Origin: Hydrogenophilales bacterium
GTDB taxonomy: Bacteria; Pseudomonadota; Gammaproteobacteria; Burkholderiales; Thiobacillaceae
Reading direction: 5' to 3'
NCBI GenBank assembly: GCA_024636775.1
Contig: JAGXGP010000004.1
Coordinates: 1 to 35,856 of the forward strand
DNA length: 35,856 nt
Positions 14,175 through 33,822 of this stretch are shown piece after piece. Below the pieces are notes generated by a model. That model worked only from the letters and a program-made list of their open reading frames with translations. It did not search any database and was not told the DNA's origin. Position 1 is the stretch's first letter. The number at the start of each line of letters is the position of its first letter. A program made the translations under genes and the position numbers.

Positions 14175-14189
14175 TGGCATGAATGATGC
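14175..14189 (+). promoter_or_regulatory. Sigma-54 (-24/-12) promoter for the sugar transferase-prsK-prsR genes
   Basis: TGGCATGAATGATGC matches the RpoN consensus TGGCACGNNNNTTGC at all positions except C6 and T12, with the essential GG and GC at the correct 12-base distance. Expected transcription start near 14201, 25 bases before the GTG at 14226. The promoter of the PEP-CTERM gene (30953-30939) has the same two deviations. Confidence 0.75.
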
Positions 14190-14225
14190 TAATCAACTCC
14201 CCATGACTCAATTTAGCGAACACCA

Positions 14226-19302: not shown

Positions 19303-21579
19303 TCATTTCACCCGATGGCGTAATCCCAACAAGGCGGGCATCAACAGCAATTCAAACACCTGACCTGCAAAAAGTCCGACAGCACACAATATGCCAAAAT
19401 GGGCTGTCGGGCTGAAATCTGACAGTCCCAGCAAGCTAAACTGGGCAATTAACACGATCGAAATGGCAATAACTGCCCGGCCTGAGCTTTCGACACTGCG
19501 GATGATGGCGAACACAGGACTTACGCCGTGACGAATACGGTGCAGATAGCCGTGATACAAATGGATGGTGTCATCCACCGTAATGCCCAGAATGACCCCA
19601 GCGATCATCACGGTTGCGACATCAAGCGCAATGCCCACCGTGCCCATCATCACAAAAATGAAAAACAATGGTGCGAGGTTCGGCACCAGACAGATTAGCG
19701 CCCCGCGGAACGAGTGGAACAGCAGCGCCAACAGCAGCAGAATCTGCAAAAAGGCGGAGGAGAAGCTTTTGACTTGGCCTTCTACGATGCGATCTTCCTG
19801 ATCTGAAAACAGTCGTCCAAATCCTGCGAAGTCGACTTCCACCCCGTCGATCGGATGCGCAATCACGTAAGCACGCGTCTTTTCGATTACCCGGCTGATT
19901 TCGTTTGCACCGTGAACATTCAGACTGAGGGTGATGCGGCCGCGCTGGAATTCTCTATTGACCAGTTCATACAAGTCGTCGCCGTCATAGATAAGCAGGA
20001 GTTGTTTAACCACTTTTCGATTGGTCGGAAGCGCATTGGGGCCGAGGTCTTCGCCTCTGAAAGCGCTATTCATTTGTTCCAATACGTCGACCATCGAAAA
20101 GGCGCGATCGACTTCGGGCTGTTGTTTGACCCAAACTTGCAATTTCTTGATTTGAGCCAATGTGGCCGGGTCTTTGAGACTGTCGCGCGACGATCCAGTG
20201 AGCACAATTTCGAGGCTGGTAACGCCGGACAACTTGTTTTCTATTTTGTCCGTGCTGCGGCTAATGACATGATCTGGCGCGAAAAACTTGATCAGATTGG
20301 ACTCGACCTTGACCTGCATCACCAACGGAATCGTCGCCAGCACAAGCACGACAGTCACGATCAGAACGGCTCTCGCGTTACGCAAACTAAACACTGCCAC
20401 AGCAGCGGCAAGGCGACGAGCGTGTGCCAAGCCGGAGCCTCGCCGCGGCCAGCGTGGCGTATCCCATTTCAGCAGAATCGGTGGCACCAGAATGAACACC
20501 ACCAGAAACACCATCAGCGTACCGATTGCACCCGCCAGGCCAAACGTCTGGACCGGCGGGATATCCACCCAAAGCAGGCTCAGCAAGCCAGCACCGGTCG
20601 TCAGTACATTGAACAGTCCGGGCTTAAAGGTATCCTTCAGCGCCCGTGCGATGCGTTGCGGGCGCTTCAACAGGGCGACACGTGCGCGCTGGATGGCTGC
20701 ATACAAATGCAGCAGCGTAGCCGTCGTGTAAGCGGCCATCAGGGTAGGAATCATCGCGGTGATCGGCGTGTAGGGTTGCCCAGACAGCACCAATCCGGCC
20801 ACACTGGCCGAGACCACCGCACCCACGGCAAGACCCCCCACCACTACCGGGCGAACCCGGCCCACCACCCACCACATCAGCGCCAATCCAATCACAACCG
20901 TGAGCGGAATGAAAATGGCACTGTCACGCCAGATCGAGTGGAGCTCCTCGACCGTTTGCGCCACGGTTCCGGCAGTGGCTGTGTGGACGGATTTGAGGGT
21001 CGGCTCGGCCGCGATAGCGGCTTTGAGCGCGAGATAAACATCGCGCCGGGCGAGACTTTCCTTAAGAAATATCGGGCGCACCACCAGCGCTACGGCCCGA
21101 CCATCTTCCGACGCAATCAGGCCAGGCGCAAAGGCATCGCTCATCACACGGGCTTTCCACTCGGCGGGAGTACGTGTATCCAGCTTGTTCGGGTCAACCA
21201 GCCGAGACACGGCAAAGCCATCGTCAGTGGCCTCGATATGTTCGACCGTGGTCAATGTCAGTACCCGATCAACCGAGGGGTGCCGCTCCATCTTCTGCGC
21301 GGCGCGATGCAGCGTGGCGAGAAATGCTGGCGAATAGAGCGCGTCGCCTTCAAACAGGGCAATTATGGCTTCGTCGTTGGGAAATTCCTTGAACAACGAA
21401 TTGCGCAGCTGGATAGCCGGCGCATCAGGCGGTGAATAAATATCGCCCGCGTTATTGAAATGAATATTAAAAAGAATTGGCAGTGATGCCAGTTGAATCC
21501 CGAGCAGAATCGCCAGCGCCAGCCACGGCGGCAGCAGGGGGACGCGGGTGCCATTGAACCAGGCCTTCAGCATCTCCAT
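19303..21579 (-). CDS. MMPL/RND-type transporter permease
   Basis: 758 residues, inner membrane. Classic duplicated RND layout: membrane segment 1 (about 18-38), a large periplasmic loop, membrane segments 2-6 (about 215-375, SIWRDSAIFIPLTVVIGLALMWW), membrane segment 7 (about 405-425), a second periplasmic loop, and segments 8-12 (about 615-750) with GVILGITVDDTIHLYHGYLHRIRHG, where the paired acidic residues (VDD) in the membrane are the proton-relay type seen in the MMPL/HpnN-like branch. Tripartite drug efflux pumps are about 1000 residues or more, so this is the smaller lipid-exporter-like branch. Third gene of the trio: it starts 13 bases after the outer membrane protein gene. Confidence 0.9.
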   Translation of the reverse strand: MEMLKAWFNGTRVPLLPPWLALAILLGIQLASLPILFNIHFNNAGDIYSPPDAPAIQLRNSLFKEFPNDEAIIALFEGDALYSPAFLATLHRAAQKMERHPSVDRVLTLTTVEHIEATDDGFAVSRLVDPNKLDTRTPAEWKARVMSDAFAPGLIASEDGRAVALVVRPIFLKESLARRDVYLALKAAIAAEPTLKSVHTATAGTVAQTVEELHSIWRDSAIFIPLTVVIGLALMWWVVGRVRPVVVGGLAVGAVVSASVAGLVLSGQPYTPITAMIPTLMAAYTTATLLHLYAAIQRARVALLKRPQRIARALKDTFKPGLFNVLTTGAGLLSLLWVDIPPVQTFGLAGAIGTLMVFLVVFILVPPILLKWDTPRWPRRGSGLAHARRLAAAVAVFSLRNARAVLIVTVVLVLATIPLVMQVKVESNLIKFFAPDHVISRSTDKIENKLSGVTSLEIVLTGSSRDSLKDPATLAQIKKLQVWVKQQPEVDRAFSMVDVLEQMNSAFRGEDLGPNALPTNRKVVKQLLLIYDGDDLYELVNREFQRGRITLSLNVHGANEISRVIEKTRAYVIAHPIDGVEVDFAGFGRLFSDQEDRIVEGQVKSFSSAFLQILLLLALLFHSFRGALICLVPNLAPLFFIFVMMGTVGIALDVATVMIAGVILGITVDDTIHLYHGYLHRIRHGVSPVFAIIRSVESSGRAVIAISIVLIAQFSLLGLSDFSPTAHFGILCAVGLFAGQVFELLLMPALLGLRHRVK

Positions 21580-21592
21580 GCAATGATTCCGT

Positions 21593-23038
21593 TCAGAATT
21601 TAGTACGCAGACCCAGCGTGATCAGCGAATGATCCTGGTGGAAACCACCCAGGGTACGTGCCTCACCGTTGAAGTAATGCGCAGCAACATACACCTCATG
21701 CGGCTCCCAGCCAACATAGCTGAGCTTGGGGCTAAGATAGACATCGTGTACGTTAAAGCCGGTGGAAAAGCGCATCCCGGCTTTCCAGCGTCCCCGTCCA
21801 AAACTGGTCTCGACTTCGCCATTGGCGCCGTAATACTCCTTCAACTCAAGGATGCTGCGATCGCTTTGTAGCGCATGAGCGACCAGCTGTAGATTGACGC
21901 GGATATCCTTCCCGCCAGGAAAAAATTCCACAGCGCCGATCCAGTCGAGTGAGTGTGTGGTGTCCATCGCAGTGGTAGTCAAGGTCACCGGTACATTGTC
22001 TGTGTACCCTGCTTCCATTCTCCAGGTGAGGCCACCCCGAACCAGTTCCAGATCAGCACCGACAAAATTGTTGAACGGATGCACCGCGGTGAGCGAAAGC
22101 GGCCCGACACGGTAATACGGCAACGACTGCCGGGTTCTCGCCAGCGTAATGCCGAAATCAAACGGCTCGCCGGTCTTGCTTAAACGTACGGCACCACCGC
22201 CGCTACCGTGTTCATCTTCTTCAATCCGCGCAGCGCCCACCAAAAACGCAAGTGCGGGGCTAGGAGCAATACCGAGCACCTGACCTGTACTGCGGTTTAT
22301 CGGACTCCAAACGCTGGCCACGTCGGGCAGTTGCGCGCCCCGAAATACCGGCAAATACACTGCATCCAGCTTGTAGTCGCCAAAACTTTGTTCCCAGCGC
22401 GCAGCCAGTTGGGCACGGCGACGGTCAGGCAAATCATCCAGTACGAATCGGGTGAGGTCGGTACGGCTCACACGGTCAGCCAGCGGGATTTCATCGGCGC
22501 GACCCCATATGATGGTCTGTGCGCCGAGTGTCAGGCGGGTATCCCCATTGCGGTAGCGCGCATAAGTGTCACTGTAATCTACCAGCGACTCCCGATGATC
22601 CGCACGACCCCCGTCCTGCATCATGCCATCGAGCCGTGCGCCAGCACGAAACTCCCAGTTATTGGTGGATTGCCACAAAACATAAGGGCTGATGCGCAGA
22701 GTGGAATAGGTATCGGCTTCCGGCGCGTCGAGCAGGCCTCCCGCTTCCAGCAACAGATCATCAATGCCATATTTGAGCGTGGGCTGGAATCCGCGCGCCC
22801 TTGGTTTACGACTGCGCGAGGTTGGGGGCGGCAGATCATCCGCTGCGTTGATCATTGGTGCAGCTACGCCGGGAGCAGCTTCAGCTGAGGCCGGACGCGA
22901 CTTCCGTGTCGGGGTGCGCGGCGGAGGCAGGTCATCGGTTGTGATTTCCGCCTCACCTCGAAGAGGTGGCAAACCGTCAGCCGCATAGACGGGCAGAACA
23001 AAGAGCGACAGACTCAAGCTCAGCAACATGTTTTTCAT
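21593..23038 (-). CDS. Outer membrane beta-barrel protein of the transport trio, function unknown
   Basis: 481 residues. Signal peptide MKNMLLSLSLSLFVLPVYA. Residues 21-82 are a disordered, basic Pro-rich linker with the motif DDLPPP repeated at 35-40 and 67-72, each followed by a basic RKSR/RKPR segment. From about 85 the sequence alternates like a beta-barrel (TLRISPYVLWQSTNNWEFRAGARLDG, DTRLTLGAQTIIWGRADEIPLAD) and ends with HSLITLGLRTKF, the terminal Phe typical of BAM-inserted barrels. WGRADEIPLADRVS is reminiscent of DUF1302-type proteins but I cannot confirm membership. Its start overlaps the stop of the LolA-like gene (ATGA), and the MMPL gene follows after 13 bases. Confidence 0.75.
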   Translation of the reverse strand: MKNMLLSLSLSLFVLPVYAADGLPPLRGEAEITTDDLPPPRTPTRKSRPASAEAAPGVAAPMINAADDLPPPTSRSRKPRARGFQPTLKYGIDDLLLEAGGLLDAPEADTYSTLRISPYVLWQSTNNWEFRAGARLDGMMQDGGRADHRESLVDYSDTYARYRNGDTRLTLGAQTIIWGRADEIPLADRVSRTDLTRFVLDDLPDRRRAQLAARWEQSFGDYKLDAVYLPVFRGAQLPDVASVWSPINRSTGQVLGIAPSPALAFLVGAARIEEDEHGSGGGAVRLSKTGEPFDFGITLARTRQSLPYYRVGPLSLTAVHPFNNFVGADLELVRGGLTWRMEAGYTDNVPVTLTTTAMDTTHSLDWIGAVEFFPGGKDIRVNLQLVAHALQSDRSILELKEYYGANGEVETSFGRGRWKAGMRFSTGFNVHDVYLSPKLSYVGWEPHEVYVAAHYFNGEARTLGGFHQDHSLITLGLRTKF

Positions 23039-23862
23039 GGGCGATATTCCGATTCCAGGCTTTCGTCAGCCAAAGTTTGGGGAGTGAAAAGTTTGGACGG
23101 CAACTTTTGATCATACAGCGCGATATCGACAACCATGCGAGTTTCGTGGCCGCTCGCAAGGTCTATCATGCGGCTATCGGTCAAGGTCCAATAGCCCTGA
23201 TTGCGCTTTTTCGCACGCAGAAGCCAACGCTTGCTAGGGGCATTGGTGTCTTTCTCAAAATAATCCATGCGTTGCAGAATGGCAGTCGAAGGGTCGATCC
23301 AGCTGATGCGTATTTTATAGGCGGAATCATCAGCGTCCAGTGGCACACTTTCGAGCACATCACAGAGGATGCCATTCTCAGTTTGCTTACCGAGTATACG
23401 GTGACGATCCTTAGAAGGCTTGCGTTCCTGCAGGTCCTCGAAAAACAAGTCGGAACCAACAAAGCGCCCGCCTTTGCGGTCGCTCGAAATACGCCGCACC
23501 CGGTCGAGCGCGGGAAGATAAAGCCACTGGTCAGTAGTGCCATCGACTTTGTCGATGCTCAGAAGACCGGTGCCCGCGATATCTTCCGGATCGAGAAAGC
23601 GAATCAGGTTAGCGGTTTCACCACCCGATTTGTCGAGCCGATAAGTGACGATTTCACGGATGCGTGGCGCCCGGCCCTTTTCGGTCAGCACCATGCGGCC
23701 CAGTGTGGTCAGGTCGCGCCCGTTGGGGCGATCATAGACGCGCTGCGCCAACAGCAATGCGTCGTTGGCCATGGCGGGTGCCGTCAAAGTGAAGCCGCCC
23801 GCCAACAGCAATAATAAAATAACAGACGAGCGAAACCACTGGCTTAAGTTTTGCTGATTCAT
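23035..23862 (-). CDS. LolA-like periplasmic protein (outer membrane lipoprotein-sorting family)
   Basis: 275 residues with a signal peptide cleaved around APAMA-ND (residue 32). Features of the PF17131-type LolA-like family: RMVLTEKGRAPRIREIVTYRLD, LIRFLDPEDIAGTGLLSID, QWLYLPALDRVRRISSDRKGGRFVGSDLFFEDL and YDQKLPSKLFTPQTL near the end. Members have the unclosed half-barrel of LolA/LolB and carry a lipid or lipoprotein across the periplasm, often next to MMPL permeases. First gene of the leftward trio, divergent from prsT (start-to-start 123 bases). A role in lipid transfer between the MMPL permease and the outer membrane protein is inference. Confidence 0.87.
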   Translation of the reverse strand: MNQQNLSQWFRSSVILLLLLAGGFTLTAPAMANDALLLAQRVYDRPNGRDLTTLGRMVLTEKGRAPRIREIVTYRLDKSGGETANLIRFLDPEDIAGTGLLSIDKVDGTTDQWLYLPALDRVRRISSDRKGGRFVGSDLFFEDLQERKPSKDRHRILGKQTENGILCDVLESVPLDADDSAYKIRISWIDPSTAILQRMDYFEKDTNAPSKRWLLRAKKRNQGYWTLTDSRMIDLASGHETRMVVDIALYDQKLPSKLFTPQTLADESLESEYRP

Positions 23863-23985: not shown

Positions 23986-26775
23986 ATGCGCCTATTTTCA
24001 CACCCGTACACCGCCCGACCAAGCCGATTGCTGATCACCTGCTTGCTATGTCTCGGCTTAGCCGCCTGCAGCGGAGAAAGTAGTGAGTCTCTTCTTGGCC
24101 AGGCAAAAGCAAGCATCGCCAAAGGCGACCTGAAAGCAGCAACTATCCAGCTCAAAAACGCAGTTATCGCAGACGACAAAAACGCCGATGCACGTTATGA
24201 ACTAGGCAAGCTATATCTCGAACAAAGTGACATGCCTAGCGCCGAAAAAGAGTTTCGGCGTGCCCGTGAAATCGGCTATGCGGCAAGCACCGTCAATCCG
24301 ATGATTGCCCGTGCGGTGCTTGGGCAGCGTGAATACCAGCGAGTGCTGGATGAACTACCCGCCCCGACCGAAAGCAACGCAGATGCCGCCACGCTGCATG
24401 CGCTGCGCGCCACGGCCGAACTCAGACTGGGGCGCAAGGAAGACGCACGCAAAACGATACAGGTCGCACTGCAAGCCGCACCTGGCAATGTCGATGTCCA
24501 TCTGGCGCTGGCCGAATTGGCCCTGTCTGACGGCGATGCCGAAAAAGCCATGCAGGAACTCGACCAGGCATTGCGCATTGACCCCAAACACCGCGACAGC
24601 CTGATGCTGAAGGGAGACCTGCTGCGCGCCACCAAAAAGCCGGTTGAAGCCGTCGCGGTCTATCGTAAAATCCTCGAAATCGACCCCCGACATACCGATG
24701 CCAGGCTGGCACTGGCGGGTATCGCCATCGCCGACAACAAACTGGATGAGGCACGCAAAGAAGTCAACGCTGCACTGAAGTTCACCCCCGGCAACCTGCA
24801 GGCACGTTACACCGAAGCGTTGATCGACTTCCGCGAAAAGAAAACCGAAAGTGCACGCGACCATCTGGCAGGCGTATTGAAGGCTGCCCCCAGCTTTGTG
24901 CCCGCGCTGTTACTGGGTGGGTCGATCGAATACGCACTCGGCAACCTGCAAACCGCCGAAGCGCACCTCAACAAGGTGATCAAGGCCGCGCCAAACAATC
25001 TCTATGCGTTGCGTCTGCTGGCTGCTTCACAATTGCGCCTGGGCCGCCCGGACGATGCCGCGCGAACCCTTGTGCCAGCGCTTAGATCCGCCAATCCAGA
25101 CGCTGGCGTGCTGGTCGTTGCGGGCGAAATCGCGCTGGTCAAGAAAGACTTTTCTCAAGCATCGTCGTACTTTGAACAAGCCACCAAGCGCAATCCTGAT
25201 AATGCGGCCATCCGCACCGAGCTCGGCATTTCCCGCCTGGCCCAGGGTGACAGCCGCGCCATGGCCGACTTGCAAGTCGCCGCCGAAATGGAGGGTGCCA
25301 ACAGCCGAGCCGACACCTTCATCATCCTCAACCAGCTCAAGAAAAAAGAATTTGATGCTGCTTTAAAAAGCATCGCCGCACTTGAGAAAAAGCAGTCCGC
25401 CAGCCCATTAACCTGGAACTACCGGGGCGCTGCCTACCTCGGTAAGCAGGACGTGGCCCGCGCACGCGACAGCTTTAGCCGAGCGCTCAAAATCGATTCC
25501 GCGTTTTTTCCTGCCGCAGCCAATCTGGCGCAACTCGACCTCAAGGATAAACAACCTGCTGCGGCAAAAAGCCGGTTCGAGGGCATCCTCAAGGCCGACC
25601 CCAAGCACCTCAACGCGATGCTCGCGCTGGGTGATCTGAGCCTGCTCGACAAAGATGAAAAAACCTACGTCAAGTGGCTGAAAACAGCCGCCTCCGCCCA
25701 CCCCCAGGCACTGCAACCGCGAGTGGCACTGGCGCGCTACCAACTCGCCAAAGGCGACAAAAACCAGGCTCTCTCCACGGCGCGCGAAGCTGTCAACGTC
25801 CAACCTGACAACCCGGCCGCGCTCGAGCTCCTCGGTACCACCCAACTGGCGCTGGGGGACACCACCAACGCGCTAGGCAGCTACCGCAAGCTGGTCGAGC
25901 GCCTGCCCGGCCAGGCCTCACCCCTGATCAAGCTCGCCACCGCGCAGATCACTGCCAAAGACCCCGCCGGCGCACGAAAAACCCTGCAGGAAGCCCTGCT
26001 CATCCAGTCGGACTTCCTCGACGCGCAACTGATGCTGGGCGGTGTCGAGATCCAGGATGCGCACTTTGACGCGGCCCACAAACTTGCCAGGCAAGTGCAG
26101 CAGCAAAAACCCGACAATCCGGCGGGTTTCGTACTAGAAGGGGATACCGCGTTCGCGCGCAAGAATTACCCTGCCGCCCTCGCCGCCTACGAGCGCGCGC
26201 AAAAACTCAATCCTTCCGGCGCACTGCTCGCCCGCCAGTTGCCAGTTTTCAACGCCACCCAGCGCCCCGAAGAAGGCGAAAAACGCCTCGCCGCCTGGCT
26301 GACCACTCACCCACAAGACGCCGGCATCCGTGCCGCGCTGGCCGAAAGCCTGATCAAACGCAAGCAATACGCCGCCGCCGCCGACCAATATCAGATCCTG
26401 TACAAGAGCAACCCCAACAACCTCATTGTCCTGAACAACCTGGCCTGGGCACTACTGGAAACCAATGACAACCGCGCGCTCGGATACGCCGAGCAGGCGT
26501 TCAAGCTCAACCCCGACAATCCTGCCGTAATGGATACGCTGGGATGGATCCTGGCACAGCAGGGCCAGACCGAACGCGGCATCAAACTGCTGAAGCAGGC
26601 GCTAGCCAAAGTCCCGGACGCTGCGGAAATCCAGTTTCACCTCGCCGCAGCCCATGCCAAATCGGGCGACCGCACCCGTGCACGGGGCGAACTCGAACGC
26701 CTTCTGACAAGTGGGGTAGCATTCCCCCAAGAGCAAGAGGCACGCGCCCTGCTCAAACAACTTACAGCCAAATAA
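23986..26775 (+). CDS. prsT: PEP-CTERM system TPR-repeat lipoprotein PrsT (copy 1)
   Basis: 929 residues. Lipoprotein signal with lipobox LAAC, Cys28. The rest is a long series of tetratricopeptide repeats (I estimate 20 or more), for example AKGDLKAATIQLKNAVIADDKNADARYELGKLY split over successive repeats and QPDNPAALELLGTTQLALGD, ending NPDNPAVMDTLGWILAQQGQTERGIKLLKQAL. Length and architecture match the PrsT family (TIGR02917 type), a scaffold of the exosortase/exopolysaccharide system at the outer or inner membrane face. The start is supported by AGGA at 23973 upstream. It is followed 125 bases later by a second, homologous gene. Confidence 0.9.
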   Translation: MRLFSHPYTARPSRLLITCLLCLGLAACSGESSESLLGQAKASIAKGDLKAATIQLKNAVIADDKNADARYELGKLYLEQSDMPSAEKEFRRAREIGYAASTVNPMIARAVLGQREYQRVLDELPAPTESNADAATLHALRATAELRLGRKEDARKTIQVALQAAPGNVDVHLALAELALSDGDAEKAMQELDQALRIDPKHRDSLMLKGDLLRATKKPVEAVAVYRKILEIDPRHTDARLALAGIAIADNKLDEARKEVNAALKFTPGNLQARYTEALIDFREKKTESARDHLAGVLKAAPSFVPALLLGGSIEYALGNLQTAEAHLNKVIKAAPNNLYALRLLAASQLRLGRPDDAARTLVPALRSANPDAGVLVVAGEIALVKKDFSQASSYFEQATKRNPDNAAIRTELGISRLAQGDSRAMADLQVAAEMEGANSRADTFIILNQLKKKEFDAALKSIAALEKKQSASPLTWNYRGAAYLGKQDVARARDSFSRALKIDSAFFPAAANLAQLDLKDKQPAAAKSRFEGILKADPKHLNAMLALGDLSLLDKDEKTYVKWLKTAASAHPQALQPRVALARYQLAKGDKNQALSTAREAVNVQPDNPAALELLGTTQLALGDTTNALGSYRKLVERLPGQASPLIKLATAQITAKDPAGARKTLQEALLIQSDFLDAQLMLGGVEIQDAHFDAAHKLARQVQQQKPDNPAGFVLEGDTAFARKNYPAALAAYERAQKLNPSGALLARQLPVFNATQRPEEGEKRLAAWLTTHPQDAGIRAALAESLIKRKQYAAAADQYQILYKSNPNNLIVLNNLAWALLETNDNRALGYAEQAFKLNPDNPAVMDTLGWILAQQGQTERGIKLLKQALAKVPDAAEIQFHLAAAHAKSGDRTRARGELERLLTSGVAFPQEQEARALLKQLTAK

Positions 26776-26843: not shown

Positions 26844-26900
26844 GCAGTCATTGAGTCTGTGTTTTCTTGATCCGACAATGTAACCCAGTGGAGTTTGCAG

Positions 26901-29681
26901 ATGACCCAACGCCCCGTCGCCCTTGCCATTGCCCTCGCCTTTGCCGCCACCGCCTTGCTAACTGCATGCGATAGCACAGCGAAGCTCACCGAGCAGGAAC
27001 ATATTCAGCGGGCGAAAGACTTTGAAGACAAGGGAAATCTTAAAGGCAGCATTCTTGAATTGAAAAATGCCGTCCAAAAGAATCCTGACAGCCCTCAAGC
27101 CAGGCTCATGCTCGGGCAAGTCTATTTAAAATCGGGAATGGGCGCGGAAGCAGAAAAAGAGCTGGCTCGGGCAGTACAGCTTGGCGTCAATCGCGAAACC
27201 ATCAAGCCCCAACTTGGCGAAGCATTGCTGATCATGGGGGAGTACAAGCGCATACTTGATGAAATCCAGCTTGGCGACAGCACCTCCACAGCGCATCGAG
27301 CCCGCATTCTGCAATTGCGAGCCGATGCCCTGCTCAAGCAAGGCAAGTTGAAAGAAGCTTGCGATACCTTCCAGCTATCACTGGATACTGATTCAAACAA
27401 TCCGCCTACCTACTGGGGCCTGGCTCAATGCGCTGTTGCTGAGCGTGACATGGTAAAAGCCAGACAGTGGCTCGATACGGCAATCAAGATTGCAGACAAA
27501 CAAGCAAAGACCTGGGTTTTTATCGGTAGCCTTGAACAGCTAAACAACAACATGCAAGCAGCCATGGCTGCATATACCAACGCCCTGAAATTGGACCCGA
27601 ACAATCTGGAGGCGCTGCAAAGCCACGCCATACTCAGCATGATTCTTGGCCAGTGGGAGGTAGCAAAGAAAGATATTGATACAACTCGGAAGCTCGCACC
27701 GAAATATTTTGGCACCCATTATCTTCAAGCCTTGTTCAATTTCCGCCAAAAGAAGTACCCGGAAGCGCGGGATGAGCTCAATGAAGTATTCAAGATCACC
27801 TCCGATCACATGCCGAGCGTACTGCTTTTTGGGGAAACCACATTCGCCCTGGGATCGCATCAGCAAGCGGAATCCTACCTGAACCGATACCTTGCGCAGT
27901 TTCCCGGCGATGCTCATGCACGCAGGGTGTTAGCTGCGACCCAACTCAAGCAAAATCAACCCGACCGCGCACTGGAAACGCTTTCGCCGCTATTGCGTTC
28001 CGAAAAAATGGACCCTGGTGCGCTTGCCCTCTCGAGTGAAGCCTATCGAATCAAGGGTGAGCCCCAAAAAGCGGCGGAACTGCTAGAAAAAGCGGCACAG
28101 CTCGACCCCCAAAATGCCGATATCAAAACGCAATTAGGGAGAAATCACCTCGCTGCAGGAGACACCACTGGCGCCATCAACCAGTTTGAAGCTGCCGCCG
28201 CCCTCGATCCCAAGCGAACCCCAGCCGACAGCCTGTTAATACTCAGTCTTCTTGAGCAGAAAGCGTACGACAAAGCCCTATCTGCCATCCAGAGCCTGGA
28301 GAAGAAACTACCCAATAGTCCTGTCACGCATGAACTTCGGGGCAAGGCCTATGCAGGCAAGAATGATTTGGTAAATGCCAGAAAAAGCTTCGAACAAGCA
28401 TTGGCTATCGATCAGAACTATTTCCCGGCTATCGCAGGCCTTGCGAACCTGGATTTGCGAAACAAGGATTTCTCAAGTGCCCGAAAAAGACTCGAGAAAA
28501 TTCTCAGTCAGGACAAGAACAACCTACTGGCAATGATGTCGCTTGCTGAGTTGGCTGCCGTCAACCAGCAAGCGGTTGAATATGTAGGCTGGCTTGAAAA
28601 AGCGGCCAAGGCGCACCCGAAAGCCGCGCCGCCCAGGATTGCGCTAGCCCATCATTACATGGCCAAAAATGACGCTCAAAAAGCGCTGGCTTTAGCGGAC
28701 GAAACCCTCAACGCGAACCCGAATAACCCTGCGGCACTGGATTTGCTTGCAAGCATCCAGTTGGCCACCGGTAACAAGACTGGCGCACTTGCGACATACA
28801 ACAAGCTCGTCCAGAAAGCAGAATGGTCGGCAGAAGCTCACTACGGACTCGCCAAAGCCCTGCTTGCCAATGGGGAACTGACACCTGCGCGCGCCGAATT
28901 GCAAAAAGCATTGCGCATCAACCCCACTCATCTTGCCAGCCAGGACGCCCTGGTAGGACTGGAAATGGGGGACAACAACCCAAGTGCCGCGCTTCGCCTG
29001 GCCCGGCAAATGCAGGCCCAGCACGCCAACTTGCCATTGGGGTATGAACGAGAAGCCGACATACTCCTAACCCAAAAACAGACGCTTCAAGCAATCAAGG
29101 CTTATGAACTGTCACTTCAGAAAGGCGCTGGCTCAGTCGGACTCATCAAGCTGCACCAGGCATACACCCTTGCCGGGAACACCACCACAGCCGACCAACG
29201 GCTTAGCGATTGGCTAAGGCAGCACCCAACCGACACGGCTGTCCGTACCTATGCAGCCGAGCACTTCATGCGCAGCAATCGCAACAAAGAGGCGATTGTC
29301 CAATTTGAGTTACTCCAACGACAGTTTCCCAACAATCCGGCCATCTTTAACAATCTGGCGTCTGTCTATCAAGCCGAAAAAAATCCACGAGCATTGGTTG
29401 CAGCGGAGCGGGCCCTGAAATTATCCCCCAACAATCCGGCCATCCAGGACACCTTGGGCTGGATTCTGGTTGAAAAGGGTCAAATCAAGCGTGGGCTGGA
29501 ACTCCTGAAAAAAGCCGCCATCGCCGCGCCTCGCGTGCCCACCATTCGTTATCACTACGCAGTCGCGCTGTCACAGAACGGCAACGCGGTACAGGCAAAG
29601 AAAGAGTTGCTCAGTTTATTACAGGCTTTCCCTACATTCCCAGAAGCGGAAGCCGCGAAAGAATTGCTCGCACGCCTTTGA
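26901..29681 (+). CDS. prsT: PEP-CTERM system TPR-repeat lipoprotein PrsT (copy 2)
   Basis: 926 residues from the ATG at 26901; a TTG two codons upstream is open, but GTGGAG lies 7 bases before the ATG. Lipobox LLTAC, Cys23. TPR repeats through the whole length, aligning with copy 1 by eye at many points: KGNLKGSILELKNAVQKNPDSPQARLMLG at the start, NNPAALDLLASIQLATGNKTGAL in the middle, NNPAIQDTLGWILVEKGQIKRGLELLKKA at the end. The two copies are clearly paralogues but far from identical, so the duplication is old or one copy was acquired separately. Copy 2 has somewhat lower G+C than copy 1. Same signalling or scaffolding role presumed. Confidence 0.9.
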   Translation: MTQRPVALAIALAFAATALLTACDSTAKLTEQEHIQRAKDFEDKGNLKGSILELKNAVQKNPDSPQARLMLGQVYLKSGMGAEAEKELARAVQLGVNRETIKPQLGEALLIMGEYKRILDEIQLGDSTSTAHRARILQLRADALLKQGKLKEACDTFQLSLDTDSNNPPTYWGLAQCAVAERDMVKARQWLDTAIKIADKQAKTWVFIGSLEQLNNNMQAAMAAYTNALKLDPNNLEALQSHAILSMILGQWEVAKKDIDTTRKLAPKYFGTHYLQALFNFRQKKYPEARDELNEVFKITSDHMPSVLLFGETTFALGSHQQAESYLNRYLAQFPGDAHARRVLAATQLKQNQPDRALETLSPLLRSEKMDPGALALSSEAYRIKGEPQKAAELLEKAAQLDPQNADIKTQLGRNHLAAGDTTGAINQFEAAAALDPKRTPADSLLILSLLEQKAYDKALSAIQSLEKKLPNSPVTHELRGKAYAGKNDLVNARKSFEQALAIDQNYFPAIAGLANLDLRNKDFSSARKRLEKILSQDKNNLLAMMSLAELAAVNQQAVEYVGWLEKAAKAHPKAAPPRIALAHHYMAKNDAQKALALADETLNANPNNPAALDLLASIQLATGNKTGALATYNKLVQKAEWSAEAHYGLAKALLANGELTPARAELQKALRINPTHLASQDALVGLEMGDNNPSAALRLARQMQAQHANLPLGYEREADILLTQKQTLQAIKAYELSLQKGAGSVGLIKLHQAYTLAGNTTTADQRLSDWLRQHPTDTAVRTYAAEHFMRSNRNKEAIVQFELLQRQFPNNPAIFNNLASVYQAEKNPRALVAAERALKLSPNNPAIQDTLGWILVEKGQIKRGLELLKKAAIAAPRVPTIRYHYAVALSQNGNAVQAKKELLSLLQAFPTFPEAEAAKELLARL

Positions 29682-29686
29682 TTTTA

Positions 29687-29750
29687 TTGAGGGGGCTTCT
29701 ATATCCGGCTCATGAGCGGGGGGCTATTCAGCCACCCCAATATCCCTCAA
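29687..29750 (+). repeat. Structured 3' element after prsT copy 2
   Basis: Outer arms TTGAGGG (29687-29693) and CCCTCAA (29744-29750) enclose a hairpin GGGGGGCT (29718-29725), loop ATTC, AGCCACCCC (29730-29738) with one bulged A. It begins 5 bases after the stop codon and lacks a T-run. Possible 3' stabiliser or processing site. Confidence 0.4.
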
Positions 29751-29782
29751 TTCGCACCAGATTGCTCAAGTGGTTGAAACTA

Positions 29783-29811
29783 ACAGGGGCTGGAGGACCT
29801 GTGGTTTTTTT
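29783..29811 (+). terminator. Possible weak terminator for prsT copy 2
   Basis: Short stem ACAGG / CCTGT with a 10-base loop, followed after GG by seven T (29805-29811). The stem is only 5 bp, so confidence is limited. Confidence 0.4.
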
Positions 29812-29949
29812 GTATCGTGTTACTCATTGATGCCACCGGGATTAGGCTTGCGCGCTTTACCGGCCCAGCAGAACCCGGTCTCCACAACAAGATGAGCGCC
29901 CAATCAAACCCTCTCTCTCCCGATCACGCCATGCTGGATGCACACAAAC

Positions 29950-29979
29950 AAAAACCCCGCCTAAACTGGCGGGGTTTTT
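29950..29979. terminator. Bidirectional Rho-independent terminator
   Basis: A perfect 12-bp inverted repeat, AAAAACCCCGCC / GGCGGGGTTTTT with a 6-base loop (TAAACT): G+C-rich stem with a T-run on both strands. It lies between the convergent prsT copy 2 and the PEP-CTERM gene and serves both directions. Confidence 0.93.
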
Positions 29980-30022
29980 GATGAGGCTGATGTTACCCCC
30001 GGGCCGAAACCCAGATTATCGT

Positions 30023-30856
30023 TCAGGCTGATTTACGCTTGCGCAGGGAAACACCCATGCCAATCAGGCCCATACCAAGCAAGGCCAAAGTAGCGGGTTC
30101 CGGCACTTGATTGAAATCAACAGCACCGACAGCGCTGATCGCCACATGAGTACCGTTGATGGCAACACCTTGAGACGTATTATTGAAAGCGTTGAAGGCC
30201 AAAGTGTAGAACGGGTCAGGATCAACGAAGTAAAGGTCGCCAGCTGCGGTATTCGCATAAGACGTGGTCGAGTTCAGGAACGCTCCGCCAAGTGGGTCAA
30301 TGCCCGCGAGGCCTACAACCAGGCTTCCAGAACCAAACAAGGTGTCACCCGCATTTTGCGAGATCGACGCTTCTGAGCCGAGGGTGGCCGCAGAGAAAAG
30401 TGTACGCGTAGCAGCATTCGCAAAGTCAGTATCTTGCCACACGCTGAAATTCAGGCTTGACAAGTTATAGGTGCTACCAATGGTTCCAACCGTGCCGCTC
30501 GCCAAAGTCGCCACCAGATTGAACGTGAGGTAGAGGCCGTGAGTGACGCCGAGACCACTCGTAATCGCTGGCACAGTGCCCAACGGCAATCCTAAGGGGC
30601 CGCCGTTTGTGAAGCCACTAAAGTCCATATAACCAAAGTTCGTGGACAAGCTTCCTACACCGACGCCACCCGCATTAATGGTCAGACGCTCAGATGAGCC
30701 GCCGTTAATTGAGGTCGCATAAAAACTGTTGAGTGTAGCTGCGTTGGAGTCCGGGTCTACTTGAAACTGAGGTAAAGCAAATGCACTGGCTGACAGTGCC
30801 AGCCCCATTGCCAATCCGGTTGCGACGAACAAGGGCTTGAATTTTACGATTTTCAT
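30023..30856 (-). CDS. PEP-CTERM sorting domain protein (exosortase substrate)
   Basis: 277 residues. Signal peptide up to about residue 27 (MGLALSASAFA), a Gly/Ala/Ser/Thr-rich body without Cys, and a C-terminal PEP-CTERM signal at 251-277: VPEPATLALL, a hydrophobic stretch, and the basic tail RKRKSA. Such proteins are exported by Sec and processed by an exosortase before release into the extracellular matrix or surface attachment. The body (FGYMDFSGFTNGGPLGLPLG, GDTLFGSGSLVVGLAGIDP) is not a domain that I recognise but resembles other PEP-CTERM matrix proteins. Ribosome site AAAGGAA 9 bases before ATG. Promoter is sigma-54 (30939-30953), no exosortase gene is in the window. Confidence 0.93.
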   Translation of the reverse strand: MKIVKFKPLFVATGLAMGLALSASAFALPQFQVDPDSNAATLNSFYATSINGGSSERLTINAGGVGVGSLSTNFGYMDFSGFTNGGPLGLPLGTVPAITSGLGVTHGLYLTFNLVATLASGTVGTIGSTYNLSSLNFSVWQDTDFANAATRTLFSAATLGSEASISQNAGDTLFGSGSLVVGLAGIDPLGGAFLNSTTSYANTAAGDLYFVDPDPFYTLAFNAFNNTSQGVAINGTHVAISAVGAVDFNQVPEPATLALLGMGLIGMGVSLRKRKSA

Positions 30857-30938
30857 GATTAATTTCCTTTCACTTCTTTAAAGAAACGAGCTTTCGACTT
30901 GGACGGGTTTCTTGGTTTATCCCGATGAACAACTTAAA

Positions 30939-30953
30939 GCATTGCCCATGCCA
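30939..30953 (-). promoter_or_regulatory. Sigma-54 (-24/-12) promoter of the PEP-CTERM gene
   Basis: Minus strand TGGCATGGGCAATGC: the RpoN consensus TGGCACGNNNNTTGC except at positions 6 and 12, GG and GC at exact spacing. Predicted start near 30927, leader of about 70 bases. Its two deviations are identical to those of the promoter at 14175-14189. Confidence 0.78.
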
Positions 30954-31005
30954 GCTGAAAATTAAATCACTCAACCATTTGATTTGCATAACACTTATCA
31001 ATTCG

Positions 31006-31016
31006 ACCAGCCTGGT
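31006..31016. repeat. Short palindrome upstream of the PEP-CTERM promoter
   Basis: ACCAG-C-CTGGT, 5-base arms with one central base, about 58 bases upstream of the -24 box. Could be an accessory activator site or chance. Confidence 0.25.
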
Positions 31017-31038
31017 TTTCACTCACCGATGTTGAGCA

Positions 31039-31057
31039 GTGTAAAGTTTCCCGACAC
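31039..31057 (-). promoter_or_regulatory. Candidate PrsR enhancer site
   Basis: On the plus strand GTGTAAAG-TTT-CCCGACAC: an imperfect inverted repeat with half-sites GTGTAAAG and GTGTCGGG, centred about 96 bases upstream of the -24 box at 30953. That is the normal distance for a sigma-54 activator site. Assignment to PrsR is inference from gene context. Confidence 0.5.
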
Positions 31058-31085
31058 CCACGGGACGAAGATCAATCGTCAAGCA

Positions 31086-32144
31086 TTATCCATTCTTAAT
31101 ATAACCCTCTGCCCTCCCCCGCCCGGCCACAATTGGTATTGGCTTGGCAAAGCCCATCCTGAATAACATCAAAGGGATAGCCTCACCCAGAGCGGTTCTC
31201 CAACCGTCCGCCAGGCTGCGCTGCGTATCGACTGGAACGCCCTCCTTACTAGCCCCTTGCAGCGCAAATATTGCCGAGGCCGGCATGGGCTGCAGGACAC
31301 GCCCCTGGCTTGTAGCGGTTAGCCAGATCCGCTGAAAAGCACGCCCCACATCGAAAATCGACTGGTCATCAGCATTTTTTACAGTCAGAAAACCCAGATT
31401 CGGCGCTAATCGGCATGGCAAGTCGCAGGCACGCCAGCCCATCATGTAGTGCGCGCCGAGCAGATTAGTCAGACGCATGACCGGCCAGTGGCGCAGCAGG
31501 GCAAAAACCGGACGCAATAGCGGCTCAACGCCCAGCGCACCGGGGGGCAGACCTTCGGGACAGCTCGCGTGCCAACCTGTTTCGAAATGGATAGCTGAAA
31601 AAAGCTCTTCGTGCAGTACCCGGGTACGGAATCGTTCGGTCTCGGCGCGCCGCATCAAACGAAGGATCTGATTGCGTATCGCGGAGTCGTCCAGCCAATT
31701 TAGCTGGCAGTCTGGGAAAAGCTGCGCTGCCGAATCCAGTTCGGCCTGCTCTGCATGGGCTATTCTGGGGCCGCGAAAATACACCCGACGGTTTGTGTGC
31801 CTCAGCGGAATCATTTCCCACAGCGGATCGGCCACGGTTTGGTCTGGCTTCAAATGGATGCTCAGAACCCAATCAGGCTGATTCGGGTCGGGTAACAGTA
31901 ATGGGACGGCCCGAATGCCAAAGCGGCTTGCGGTTATGGTCAGATTTTCAACCAGCGCCCCCAATGACATCAGGGCGAGCGCCCGGTTGTAGCCCGCGGG
32001 AGGCGGGAGCTTCGGCTCGGTATAGGTGACACGGAGGGTATCGTGATCAAGCCTGAAACGGACTCGGTGATGATTGTCCGCGGAAGGCGCCAGGATGGCG
32101 CCTTCCAGGATAAAGCGTAGCGTGTCCTGGTCCAGTTGGCTCAT
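31086..32144 (-). CDS. Nitroreductase-fold protein of the acyltransferase-E1 cluster
   Basis: 352 residues from the ATG at 32144, which overlaps the ThiF stop by 4 bases; a GTG 18 bases upstream is also open. Nitroreductase features: LEGAILAPSADNHHRVRF (13-30, FMN phosphate region), LALMSLGALVENLTITASRFGI (56-77, the dimer helix) and RHTNRRVYFRGP (115-126, like the RRSVRxF motif). Flavin enzymes of this fold reduce nitro or enone groups, or oxidise as in thiazoline oxidases. The C-terminal half is longer than a standard 200-residue enzyme. A fused E1 + nitroreductase arrangement is known from mycobacterial MoeY/Rv1355c-type proteins; here the parts are separate coupled genes. Substrate unknown. 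Confidence 0.75.
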   Translation of the reverse strand: MSQLDQDTLRFILEGAILAPSADNHHRVRFRLDHDTLRVTYTEPKLPPPAGYNRALALMSLGALVENLTITASRFGIRAVPLLLPDPNQPDWVLSIHLKPDQTVADPLWEMIPLRHTNRRVYFRGPRIAHAEQAELDSAAQLFPDCQLNWLDDSAIRNQILRLMRRAETERFRTRVLHEELFSAIHFETGWHASCPEGLPPGALGVEPLLRPVFALLRHWPVMRLTNLLGAHYMMGWRACDLPCRLAPNLGFLTVKNADDQSIFDVGRAFQRIWLTATSQGRVLQPMPASAIFALQGASKEGVPVDTQRSLADGWRTALGEAIPLMLFRMGFAKPIPIVAGRGRAEGYIKNG

Positions 32145-33001
32145 TTCAACCCGAGCTGCCACCGGGCAATGGCAAGGCCCAGGCGCTGAATCGGGTTGTT
32201 GTTGCCCCAGGGTCGCCAGGTATGGGTCAGCTTGTTTTCGTAAGCATCAAACTGGTAGCCGTGCGGCGCGGCCAGAACCTTGCCGCGTTTCAACAGGATT
32301 TTCAGCGCCTCGGTGGCTGCGGCCCCCGCGCATAACTGGCACGCCATAGCGGTTGAGGGTCCGCGCTGACCGGCAAAGTCGACGGTGGAACGATCCGCCA
32401 GATAGCCGCGTTGCAGCATGGCGGGGGACAGACCCAACAAGAAGCGGAGGGCTTTTTCGTTGTCGGACACACCCTCGAACCGAAAATACTCTTCGAAGCT
32501 CATGCGGCCGGGCAAAATGTTGACGATGGCTGTGCCCATGCCCAGTGGGGCGGCGATGACGGCGGGGATGCGCAAGCGCTCGCACGCCCTGTAGACCGCT
32601 TCTCGCGCGGCGAACACGAAAAAATCCAGACCGTCGACATAAATATCGACATCTTTGAAGAAATCATCCAAGTTGGTTTCATTGACACCTTCGGGGAAAA
32701 CCCGGATATCCAGTTCGGGATTGATATCCCGCGCCTGTTCAAGCATGACGTCGACCTTGGCACGACCGAGAGTTTGCATAGTGGCGCCAGCCTGGCGGTT
32801 GAAGTTAACCTGATCGAAGGTGTCGAAATCGGAAATATTGAATTTTCCGATCCCCAGGCGAGCCAGCGTCAGCAGGTGAATTCCGCCTACGCCCCCCATC
32901 CCGGCAATTGCAACACGCACATTACGTAACGTGCTTTGCTCCGCTTCCGTGACCCAGCCAATATTTCTAGAAAAGGCGGTGCTGTAATCGAATTGTGGCA
33001 T
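32141..33001 (-). CDS. ThiF/E1-like adenylating enzyme
   Basis: 286 residues, cytoplasmic. Nucleotide-binding GMGGVGG (34-40), acidic DFDTFDQVNFNRQ (58-70) with the R/N/Q residues that contact ATP, Lys82, and YVDGLDFF (121-128) in place of the usual D-G/A-D strand. Family members adenylate the C-terminus of a ubiquitin-like sulfur carrier or a peptide. The two CxxC pairs that hold structural zinc in ThiF/MoeB are missing: the only cysteines are 140, 221 and 224, the last two in CQLCAGAAATEALK. No obvious ThiS/ubiquitin-like partner is encoded next to it. The gap to the acyltransferase stop is 11 bases, and the stop overlaps the nitroreductase start. Confidence 0.85.
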   Translation of the reverse strand: MPQFDYSTAFSRNIGWVTEAEQSTLRNVRVAIAGMGGVGGIHLLTLARLGIGKFNISDFDTFDQVNFNRQAGATMQTLGRAKVDVMLEQARDINPELDIRVFPEGVNETNLDDFFKDVDIYVDGLDFFVFAAREAVYRACERLRIPAVIAAPLGMGTAIVNILPGRMSFEEYFRFEGVSDNEKALRFLLGLSPAMLQRGYLADRSTVDFAGQRGPSTAMACQLCAGAAATEALKILLKRGKVLAAPHGYQFDAYENKLTHTWRPWGNNNPIQRLGLAIARWQLGLK

Positions 33002-33012
33002 TTGAAGTCTAT

Positions 33013-33822
33013 TCAGTCGCCTCTTAAGAGGCGCTGGACAATCCCTTCCTCATCATCTTTCGAGAAAAAATAAGGATAGAGCGAGCGTTCAATTCTCGCA
33101 GCCTCGGAATCTGTTGTCCCCCCCCAATGCGCTATCTGCTGATCGACATAATCGATTTTCAGGCGCAACAATACCCCCATCGTGTTAACACGTGTATTGA
33201 GACGCTCCTCACCAAACGGCTCAAATCCAAGCATGCGCTTGTAGAAAAGGGCGTGCCTGGGAGTGACTTCAATCAGCACATCTGTCTGATTATGCAGGAT
33301 GCGCCCGTAGATATAAGCAATATGAAAAAGACCCGCAAGGACGCGCTTGGACCCGCGTACTTGATCTACCGCAAATTTTGTCAATTCGCAGATCTTGCAT
33401 CCTTCATCCCTGAGTTCATCCACTTCTTTTTTGTAATTTTCATCGGCCATCAGCGGATTGCCTGCATCAATGCCGAGGGTCAGGGTCCCGACAACAGCTT
33501 CATTCTGTGATGCCATCAACGTAATCCGGTCTGGCACTTTCAGCATGCCCGGCACGTCATATCCACGCTTCATATACATGCGTTGGATCAACATGCTGGC
33601 ATTGTTGACGCGTTCCTGTGAGTGCGCCAATCGAATTTTGAAATTTTGTTCTTCTATGGATTCAGGCTGCGGTTGACGACTTTCATCACCCGGAATCATG
33701 ACTAGATCTTTCAGGGTGTAAGGCGACACAGCAATAATGGTGTTGTCCCATTCATCTGGGCTTTTTCGCCATTCTCTGGTACCAAAAGGGAACTTACGCT
33801 TGTCTGACATTTTTCCTGACAT
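33013..33822 (-). CDS. N-acyltransferase of the FeeM / PEP-CTERM-exosortase-associated type
   Basis: 269 residues (a second ATG 12 bases downstream has AGGA very close, so the start may be 33810). GNAT-like fold: EEQNFKIRLAHSQERVNNASMLIQRMY (57-83), RITLMASQNEAVVGTLTLGID (99-119), CELTKFAVD (145-153) and EVTPRHALFYKRMLGFEPFG (185-204). These match N-acyl amino acid synthases (FeeM) and the related acyltransferases found with exosortases, which join acyl chains from acyl carrier protein or CoA to an amino acid. The CoA-type RxxGxG loop is poor, as in acyl-ACP-dependent members. First gene of the cluster; hemB lies about 100 bases upstream in the same direction. Product unknown. Confidence 0.78.
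   Translation of the reverse strand: MSGKMSDKRKFPFGTREWRKSPDEWDNTIIAVSPYTLKDLVMIPGDESRQPQPESIEEQNFKIRLAHSQERVNNASMLIQRMYMKRGYDVPGMLKVPDRITLMASQNEAVVGTLTLGIDAGNPLMADENYKKEVDELRDEGCKICELTKFAVDQVRGSKRVLAGLFHIAYIYGRILHNQTDVLIEVTPRHALFYKRMLGFEPFGEERLNTRVNTMGVLLRLKIDYVDQQIAHWGGTTDSEAARIERSLYPYFFSKDDEEGIVQRLLRGD

Follow-up and report, generated by a model that had tools for sequence, protein, structure and literature searches.

A predicted acyl-oxazolone biosynthesis operon beside aggregation-associated PEP-CTERM genes in a Hydrogenophilales bacterium

Three adjacent genes in a Hydrogenophilales bacterium, encoding an N-acyl amino acid synthase (NAS), a ThiF/E1-like enzyme and a flavin-dependent oxidase (FDO), likely form an acyl-oxazolone or N-acyl-dehydro-amino-acid unit, whose product may be exported by a relay and may play a role in aggregation. 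The genes lie on the minus strand of a 35,856-nucleotide stretch of DNA analyzed here in full (hereafter, the window; assembly GCA_024636775.1, contig JAGXGP010000004.1, our contig C77), which is part of a draft genome of 2.8 Mb in 159 contigs that is 87% complete. Observed gene families, coupling, conservation and statistical linkage bear on the parts of this explanation to different degrees. The class of chemistry, judged by homology, is highly probable, and an aromatic amino-acid substrate is somewhat favored; linkage suggests export by a relay of an MMPL transporter, a LolA-like carrier and a DUF1302 protein at roughly even odds, and suggests a role in aggregation more tentatively. The product would be a small lipid built from a fatty acid and an amino acid, of a recently described kind, whose genes are often kept beside aggregation and lipid-export genes in relatives, and this gene neighborhood hints, in a way that can be tested, at the function of the lipids.

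A predicted acyl-oxazolone operon

The NAS gene (33013–33822, 269 amino acids; PF21926, E = 2.7e-45), of the FeeM/NasY type and the predicted first step, is followed after 11 bp by the gene for the ThiF/E1-like enzyme (32141–33001, 286 amino acids), a predicted ATP-dependent azlactone (oxazolone) cyclase, which matches PF00899 (E = 2.4e-44) and NF006077 (442 bits, cut-off 266). The FDO gene (31086–32144, 352 amino acids from the ATG at 32144), a predicted desaturase of the nitroreductase superfamily, begins within the ThiF gene, whose stop codon overlaps its ATG by 4 bp, so that the GTG start of the FDO open reading frame at 32162 probably lies 6 codons too far upstream. Both the families assigned in the original prediction (a FeeM-type acyltransferase, a ThiF-like adenylating enzyme and a nitroreductase-fold flavoprotein) and the coupling of the three genes were thus borne out, as was the PEP-CTERM gene reported beside them. 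That gene, pepA (30023–30856, minus strand), begins 229 bp after FDO and encodes a flocculation-associated PEP-CTERM protein (NF033554, 148 bits against a cut-off of 80; PF07589, E = 1.1e-7).

Reactions and their order are assigned by homology to the Tyz and Trz systems. NAS would N-acylate an amino acid, most likely one with an aromatic side chain, with a fatty acyl group taken from acyl carrier protein or coenzyme A; the natural N-acyl oxazolones described in PMC12856293 derive from aromatic amino acids. ThiF would then adenylate the carboxyl group, and closure by the amide oxygen would give an azlactone (5-oxazolone) ring with release of AMP. The oxidase, using flavin mononucleotide (FMN), would introduce an alpha,beta double bond with O2, and the end product may stay an oxazolone or open to an N-acyl dehydro-amino acid. 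A Lol-like relay whose genes lie in the same region would probably carry this product toward the outer membrane or out of the cell, and the product may act within an exopolysaccharide and PEP-CTERM aggregation program. N-acylation, E1-like carboxyl activation and a flavin redox step had all been predicted originally; this chemistry has been demonstrated for TyzACB and TrzAS and appears largely right, by homology, for the window.

Comparisons of the single proteins are consistent with these assignments. NAS, which aligned with its relatives in 11 rows, has FeeM (2g0b, E = 8.9e-7) as its sole match in the PDB up to E = 1, and in the profile scan TIGR03694 gave no match to it even at E = 1. In ThiF, residues G34, G36, G37 and G39 of the glycine-rich nucleotide loop, together with R69, K82, D123 and D126, are invariant in 16 of 16 aligned rows. 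The next-best models of ThiF after NF006077 are PRK14851 and PRK14852 (300 and 265 bits, below their own cut-offs and above the MoeB and ThiF models), both of which are also matched by the oxidase. In the PDB, ThiF is closest to TcdA enzymes (E = 1.2e-13), which reportedly make cyclic t6A by closing a ring on an N-acylated amino acid at the expense of ATP, and which therefore provide a good mechanistic model. The window's ThiF is 97% identical to that of a Thiobacillus metagenome-assembled genome (MAG), and its five closest named relatives comprise four Thiobacillus and one other Hydrogenophilales. FDO matches an Acg-family FMN oxidoreductase model (NF047509, E = 7.9e-33), PRK14851 (E = 4e-35) and the Rv1355c family (E = 2.5e-25). 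A phmmer search against the PDB placed the Acg homolog 2ymv at the top with E = 0.3 only, and therefore folds were compared: for the predicted structure (pLDDT 83) the best match was again 2ymv (E = 5.4e-13, TM 0.65/0.69).

Linkage to exosortase genes across the class

Among 369 genomes sampled from the class, 40 (the window's included) encode a ThiF protein over the NF006077 cut-off, and a clear gap separates these positives from the rest (320 vs 144 bits). The exosortase XrtA was found over its cut-off in 35 of the 40 and in 37 of the 329 others (Fisher p = 1.2e-23, a statistic that disregards kinship), which bears out the suggestion that the cluster is linked to exosortase genes across genomes. 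The 40 genomes represent 34 genera, with XrtA in 29 of them and TIGR03694 in 26, and in 14 of the 40 genomes ThiF and XrtA share a contig at a distance of no more than 50 kb. An acyltransferase (TIGR03694 over cut-off or FeeM at 80 bits or more; another FeeM count used all matches at E = 0.001) was found somewhere in 37 of the 40 genomes, and no more than 12 kb from ThiF in 32. Within XrtA-bearing genomes, TIGR03694 over cut-off occurs in 25 of 35 that have ThiF and in 4 of 37 that lack it (p = 1.1e-7), and therefore tracks ThiF rather than exosortase. These results suggest that TIGR03694, a family named for its exosortase association only, is the first enzyme of the acyl-oxazolone pathway in many relatives; the window's genome is an exception, with a FeeM-type NAS and no TIGR03694 match at cut-off.

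An oxidase match occurs in the same frame as ThiF in 13 of the 39 other class loci. A further 38 named loci were collected in a single scan that had the window's ThiF protein as its sole query, and are thus biased to close relatives; loci of Massilia eburnea and Thalassotalea algicola, from genera of known producers, carry ThiF at 60% and 59% identity, respectively. By a pattern test, a PEP-CTERM gene lies within 3 kb of ThiF in 18 of the 39 class loci and in 21 of the 38 named loci.

A candidate Lol-like export relay

Three minus-strand genes of the window are candidate exporter parts: a LolA-like periplasmic carrier (23035–23862; PF17131, E = 2.8e-50), singled out by its linkage to ThiF in relatives; a DUF1302 protein (21593–23038; PF06980, E = 5.9e-7) that is probably an outer-membrane protein; and an MMPL/HAE3-type resistance-nodulation-division transporter as the candidate engine (19303–21579; PF03176, E = 4.9e-25; TIGR00921, E = 9.6e-30, below cut-off). 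In 23 of the 40 genomes (19 of 34 genera), ThiF has a LolA-like gene no more than 15 kb away, against 0.78 expected from the number of LolA-like genes per genome under uniform placement. LolA-like matches were kept at 76 bits or more in one search (79 matches) and at 74 bits or more in a second; among the weaker ones dropped were, in genome G360, a 23-bit fragment that sits 7.4 kb from ThiF where the contig ends and, in genome G198, a 30-bit match some 14 kb away from XrtA.

Among the other class loci, 20 of 39 include a LolA-like gene, accompanied by an MMPL protein in nine, by an FtsX-type permease, as in a LolCDE-like engine, in nine, by both in none and by neither in two, and a DUF1302-type protein is present in 17 of the 18 loci that have both the LolA-like gene and an engine (MMPL at 150 bits or more, FtsX at 80 or more, DUF1302 and LolA at E = 1e-6, in stretches that run to about 10 kb or to the end of the contig). 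For L037, a locus of the FtsX type, Pfam confirmed the LolA-like and DUF1302 proteins along with an ABC ATPase and two FtsX permeases. Could the exporter simply accompany XrtA? A LolA-like gene was found within 30 kb of XrtA in 2 of the 37 XrtA-positive genomes without ThiF versus 7 of the 35 with it, and a mere XrtA link was rejected on the former count; both ThiF-negative cases have a FeeM/TIGR03694-type match 3.6–5.1 kb from the LolA-like gene.

Regulation and the aggregation setting

Profile matches identify further parts of the XrtA system in the window in addition to the PEP-CTERM gene, all on the plus strand: an EpsB2-type glycosyltransferase (14226–15620; TIGR03013, 551 bits), the histidine kinase PrsK (15641–17722; TIGR02916, 910 bits), the sigma54-type response regulator PrsR (17596–19077; TIGR02915, 762 bits), whose true start probably lies downstream of the open reading frame's start, the TIGR02915 match beginning at residue 49, and two copies of PrsT, the XrtA/PEP-CTERM tetratricopeptide-repeat protein (23986–26775 and 26895–29681; TIGR02917, 980 and 830 bits). 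A profile search of the window's genome gave 21 PEP-CTERM matches.

The pepA gene has its own sigma54-like promoter (GG-N10-GC, 30938–30953, minus strand, 11 of 12 consensus positions) and, 3' of it on the same strand, an intrinsic-terminator-like hairpin (29949–29980; 13 pairs, then a T-rich tail). Its own promoter-like site and the 229-bp gap after FDO leave a transcript common to pepA and the three genes unsupported. Sites with at least 11 of 12 positions number three in the window (before pepA, before epsB2 at 14175–14190, and inside prsK), against 0.5 expected from 20 base shuffles. Sigma54-like sites also precede the pepA-like genes of loci L097 (12/12) and L098 (11/12), and none of at least 9 positions was found upstream of that of L076. 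Sigma70-like promoters between 29600 and 34200 were uninformative (2 vs 3.7 in shuffles), and the four terminator-like sites of the region do not exceed shuffles (5.6).

A rival role for the N-acyl amino acid or oxazolone is that of a diffusible signal, which would turn aggregation on or off in the manner of an acyl-homoserine lactone (AHL). We regard this as unlikely: the closest structural homologs of TyzA, from the TyzACB system, are FeeM and an AHL synthase (PMC10404671), and stieleriacines change the species composition of biofilms (PMC7293339), but no LuxR-type receptor was matched among the 25 window proteins scanned, in which the regulators present are PrsK and PrsR.

A constant NAS–ThiF core and a variable oxidase

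Among 25 members of the genus, the window's genome included, ThiF is over its cut-off in 23 and XrtA in 20. The 22 other ThiF-bearing genomes yielded 23 loci (24 with the window), and NAS and ThiF are present in all 23; hemB is present in 21, and the two loci without it, L118 and L128, sit on contigs of 6.9 and 8.3 kb. The ThiF of locus L135 (G376:C57) lies in two frames (21969–22559 and 22552–22830), so that the gene is either broken or misassembled. Twelve of the 23 loci, or 13 of 24 with the window, have FDO immediately after ThiF, and the adjacency of all three genes seen in the window is only partly conserved in relatives. By best BLAST match the 13 oxidases fall into two groups, four window-like and nine like that of locus L077. 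The pattern test places a PEP-CTERM gene no more than 3 kb from ThiF in 20 of the 23 loci (the exceptions are L113, L124 and L129), where chance would place one that near in about 5–6% of loci by a hand estimate from the 21 matches in 2.8 Mb. The constant core in the genus is therefore NAS plus ThiF, usually near a PEP-CTERM gene.

Eleven of the 24 loci lack FDO, and an alignment search found a strong match (at least 288 bits) in 13 of 23 genomes, always next to ThiF, and in the other 10 no match above 64.4 bits anywhere; the listed completeness of three of these is 100%. An unlinked FDO copy was accordingly rejected as the reason for the FDO-less loci, no strong match having been found elsewhere in genomes of which several are drafts, 70–100% complete. 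NAS and ThiF stand side by side in seven of the eleven; in the other four, ThiF is preceded by a gene resembling an alpha/beta hydrolase and separated from NAS by one resembling a methyltransferase, calls made by Pfam in L130 only (PF00561, E = 7.8e-31, for the hydrolase) and by sequence similarity in the other three. All eleven have a PEP-CTERM gene within 3 kb of ThiF, confirmed by Pfam in the four scanned (L121, L122, L130 and L131).

These loci bring up a different role for the pathway, in which NAS, ThiF and the PEP-CTERM neighbor would be the invariant unit and the oxidase an exchangeable, optional tailoring enzyme, and the azlactone made by ThiF would serve as an acyl donor that attaches the N-acyl amino acid to sorted PEP-CTERM proteins or to exopolysaccharide. 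The constancy of the core, the genomes without a strong oxidase match, the PEP-CTERM gene at every FDO-less locus and the hydrolase-like gene beside ThiF in four of them (one of the four scanned) all speak for it. Nonetheless, we consider it improbable: the window does have the oxidase, the small molecule itself is the product in characterized systems, PEP-CTERM neighbors are also expected if the lipid just accompanies the exosortase program, and we know of no case of PEP-CTERM protein acylation. If true, it would be a new way of lipidating the PEP-CTERM matrix, with TIGR03694 acyltransferases as its first enzyme in many Proteobacteria.

Two sets of loci deserve mention for their layout. Loci L097 (Massilia eburnea) and L098 (Duganella sp.) consist of NAS, ThiF and then a PepA-like gene that a sigma54-like site precedes; they have no oxidase match, the same core-only layout as several loci of the Thiobacillus genus. 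Between the window and L075, a nearly dissimilar stretch (27992–32142 in the window) lies between blocks of 92% and 97% DNA identity and breaks off at the ThiF stop codon; NAS and ThiF are 99% and 97% identical as proteins, and beyond the break the oxidase is 50% identical, the second prsT 55%, and a different PEP-CTERM gene replaces pepA. The difference resembles an exchange of the oxidase–pepA–prsT end, and misassembly is possible as well, given that L075 comes from a MAG and the window from a draft genome.

E1-like and nitroreductase-fold enzymes co-occur in azole pathways, and azole or azoline formation on a ribosomal peptide (RiPP) had been raised originally; this is very unlikely, as it leaves the NAS gene beside ThiF unexplained, ThiF falls in NF006077 and FDO in the Acg/Rv1355c group, and no YcaO match was found among the 25 window proteins scanned, a scan that included no targeted or genome-wide YcaO search. 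A housekeeping role in sulfur-carrier activation for molybdopterin or thiamine (MoeB or ThiF proper) was rejected and is next to impossible: although the superfamily is the same and MoeB and ThiF models were matched, scores are 59–89 bits against cut-offs of 152–633, the protein has three cysteines in total and a single CxxC whereas the MoeB zinc site requires two CxxC pairs, and the window's genome has two further ThiF-family genes over cut-off.

Weighing the proposed explanation

Several observations weigh against an acyl-oxazolone unit with relay export and a role in aggregation. On the enzyme side, FDO scores below the Pfam gathering threshold (20.2 vs 23.5 bits) and all of its model matches fall under the curated cut-offs of those models; for stieleriacines and for thalassotalic and kyonggic acids, whose gene clusters are of the same kind, no acyl-oxazolone has been observed (PMC12479983). 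On the side of linkage, the genome statistics treat phylogenetically non-independent genomes as independent, and five ThiF genomes have no XrtA over cut-off (the window's genome, G098, G249, G350 and G360), the best exosortase in the window's draft genome reaching 146 bits against a cut-off of 208. A LolA-like gene is in reach in only 5 of the 38 named loci, so that the exporter link is clade-limited, and in the window itself the exporter trio lies 8.5 kb from ThiF with the two opposite-strand prsT genes in between. Finally, no sigma54-like site of at least 10 positions precedes the NAS operon, which leaves its co-regulation with pepA unsupported.

The 146-bit exosortase just mentioned, one of a second type, is encoded at G000:C119:4628–5407 (L074), and three PEP-CTERM matches share its contig. 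Far from the operon, at 1457–3838 of the window, a 793-amino-acid protein with three VanZ-like stretches adjoins a beta-helix/NosD-like protein (weak matches, below cut-off).

Relation to described pathways and loci

By homology, the unit belongs to a pathway kind that has already been described, and the statement in the original prediction that no described pathway combines these three parts does not hold: TyzACB (PMC10404671) and TrzAS (PMC12856293) produce acyl-oxazolones, as does OxzAB (de Rond 2021, as cited in PMC10404671 and PMC12856293). The prediction had also named membership of the E1-like and nitroreductase proteins in a characterized pathway, such as molybdopterin synthesis, as evidence against a new system; by homology they do belong to a characterized pathway, although not to that one. 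A link of NAS genes to PEP-CTERM and exosortase loci is likewise published (Craig, Cherry and Brady 2011, as cited in PMC4897644, PMC7293339 and PMC8776678), the loci described there resembling the window in having a NAS gene beside exosortase-system genes. Among the open-licence papers listed, ThiF was not found joined to exosortase or PEP-CTERM; PMC2907700 contains the terms exosortase, PEP-CTERM and nitroreductase, and in PMC8776678 oxazolone and exosortase occur in unrelated places only; within that scope, the TIGR03694–ThiF link, the Lol-like exporter and the NAS–ThiF–PEP-CTERM core were not found in print.

TyzACB of Mycobacterium tuberculosis is, by family and description, like the window in having separate genes for the acyltransferase, the ThiF cyclase and the oxidase (TyzC, an FDO-A). 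Its acyltransferase acylates L-Tyr or L-Phe, its ThiF forms the oxazolone ring in an ATP-dependent reaction and desaturation by its FDO uses O2, and the MMPL gene mmpL9 lies nearby, in parallel to the window's MMPL gene (PMC10404671). It differs from the window in that tyzA is on the opposite strand, and the passages describing it do not mention an exosortase or PEP-CTERM context (PMC10404671). Grigg et al. (PMC10404671) place TyzC in the oxidase subcluster FDO-A23, whose 83 members come from Actinobacteria, Betaproteobacteria and Hydrogenophilalia, so the oxidases of the window's clade may already be counted there. OxzAB of Pseudoalteromonas rubra and TrzAS of mycobacteria have the same three activities as predicted here and give an acyl-oxazolone; in both, ThiF and FDO are fused, whereas they are separate in the window, and TrzA acylates tryptophan (PMC12856293). 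Cyclization is obligatorily first for TrzS, and in the Tyz system the order is not obligate (PMC10404671, PMC12856293).

NAS, ThiF and nitroreductase genes have also been assigned to producers of thalassotalic acid, kyonggic acid and stieleriacines (PMC12479983), with an operon-like arrangement in Thalassotalea and Massilia, and the stieleriacine cluster of S. maiorica contains a PEP-CTERM gene (PMC12479983, PMC7293339), as is found near the window's trio. Their products are known N-acyl dehydrotyrosines, whereas that of the window is predicted only, and the Stieleria cluster adds methyltransferases (PMC12479983, PMC7293339). At L138:4896–8714, an NTR-like gene, an O-methyltransferase gene (PF00891, E = 8.5e-33) and ThiF stand in a row with NAS opposite, an arrangement that recalls the O-methylated stieleriacines. 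The flocculation locus of Aquincola tertiaricarbonis resembles the window from the aggregation side: its pepA lies next to prsT with a putative terminator between them, has -24/-12 sigma54 motifs and is transcribed from a sigma54 promoter, comparable to the site before the window's pepA, and the passages of PMC9850573 mention no acyl-oxazolone cluster there. Compared with these systems, the window would represent a proteobacterial branch of the acyl-oxazolone pathway that is tied to exosortase and exopolysaccharide loci and, in part, also to a Lol-like lipid export relay.

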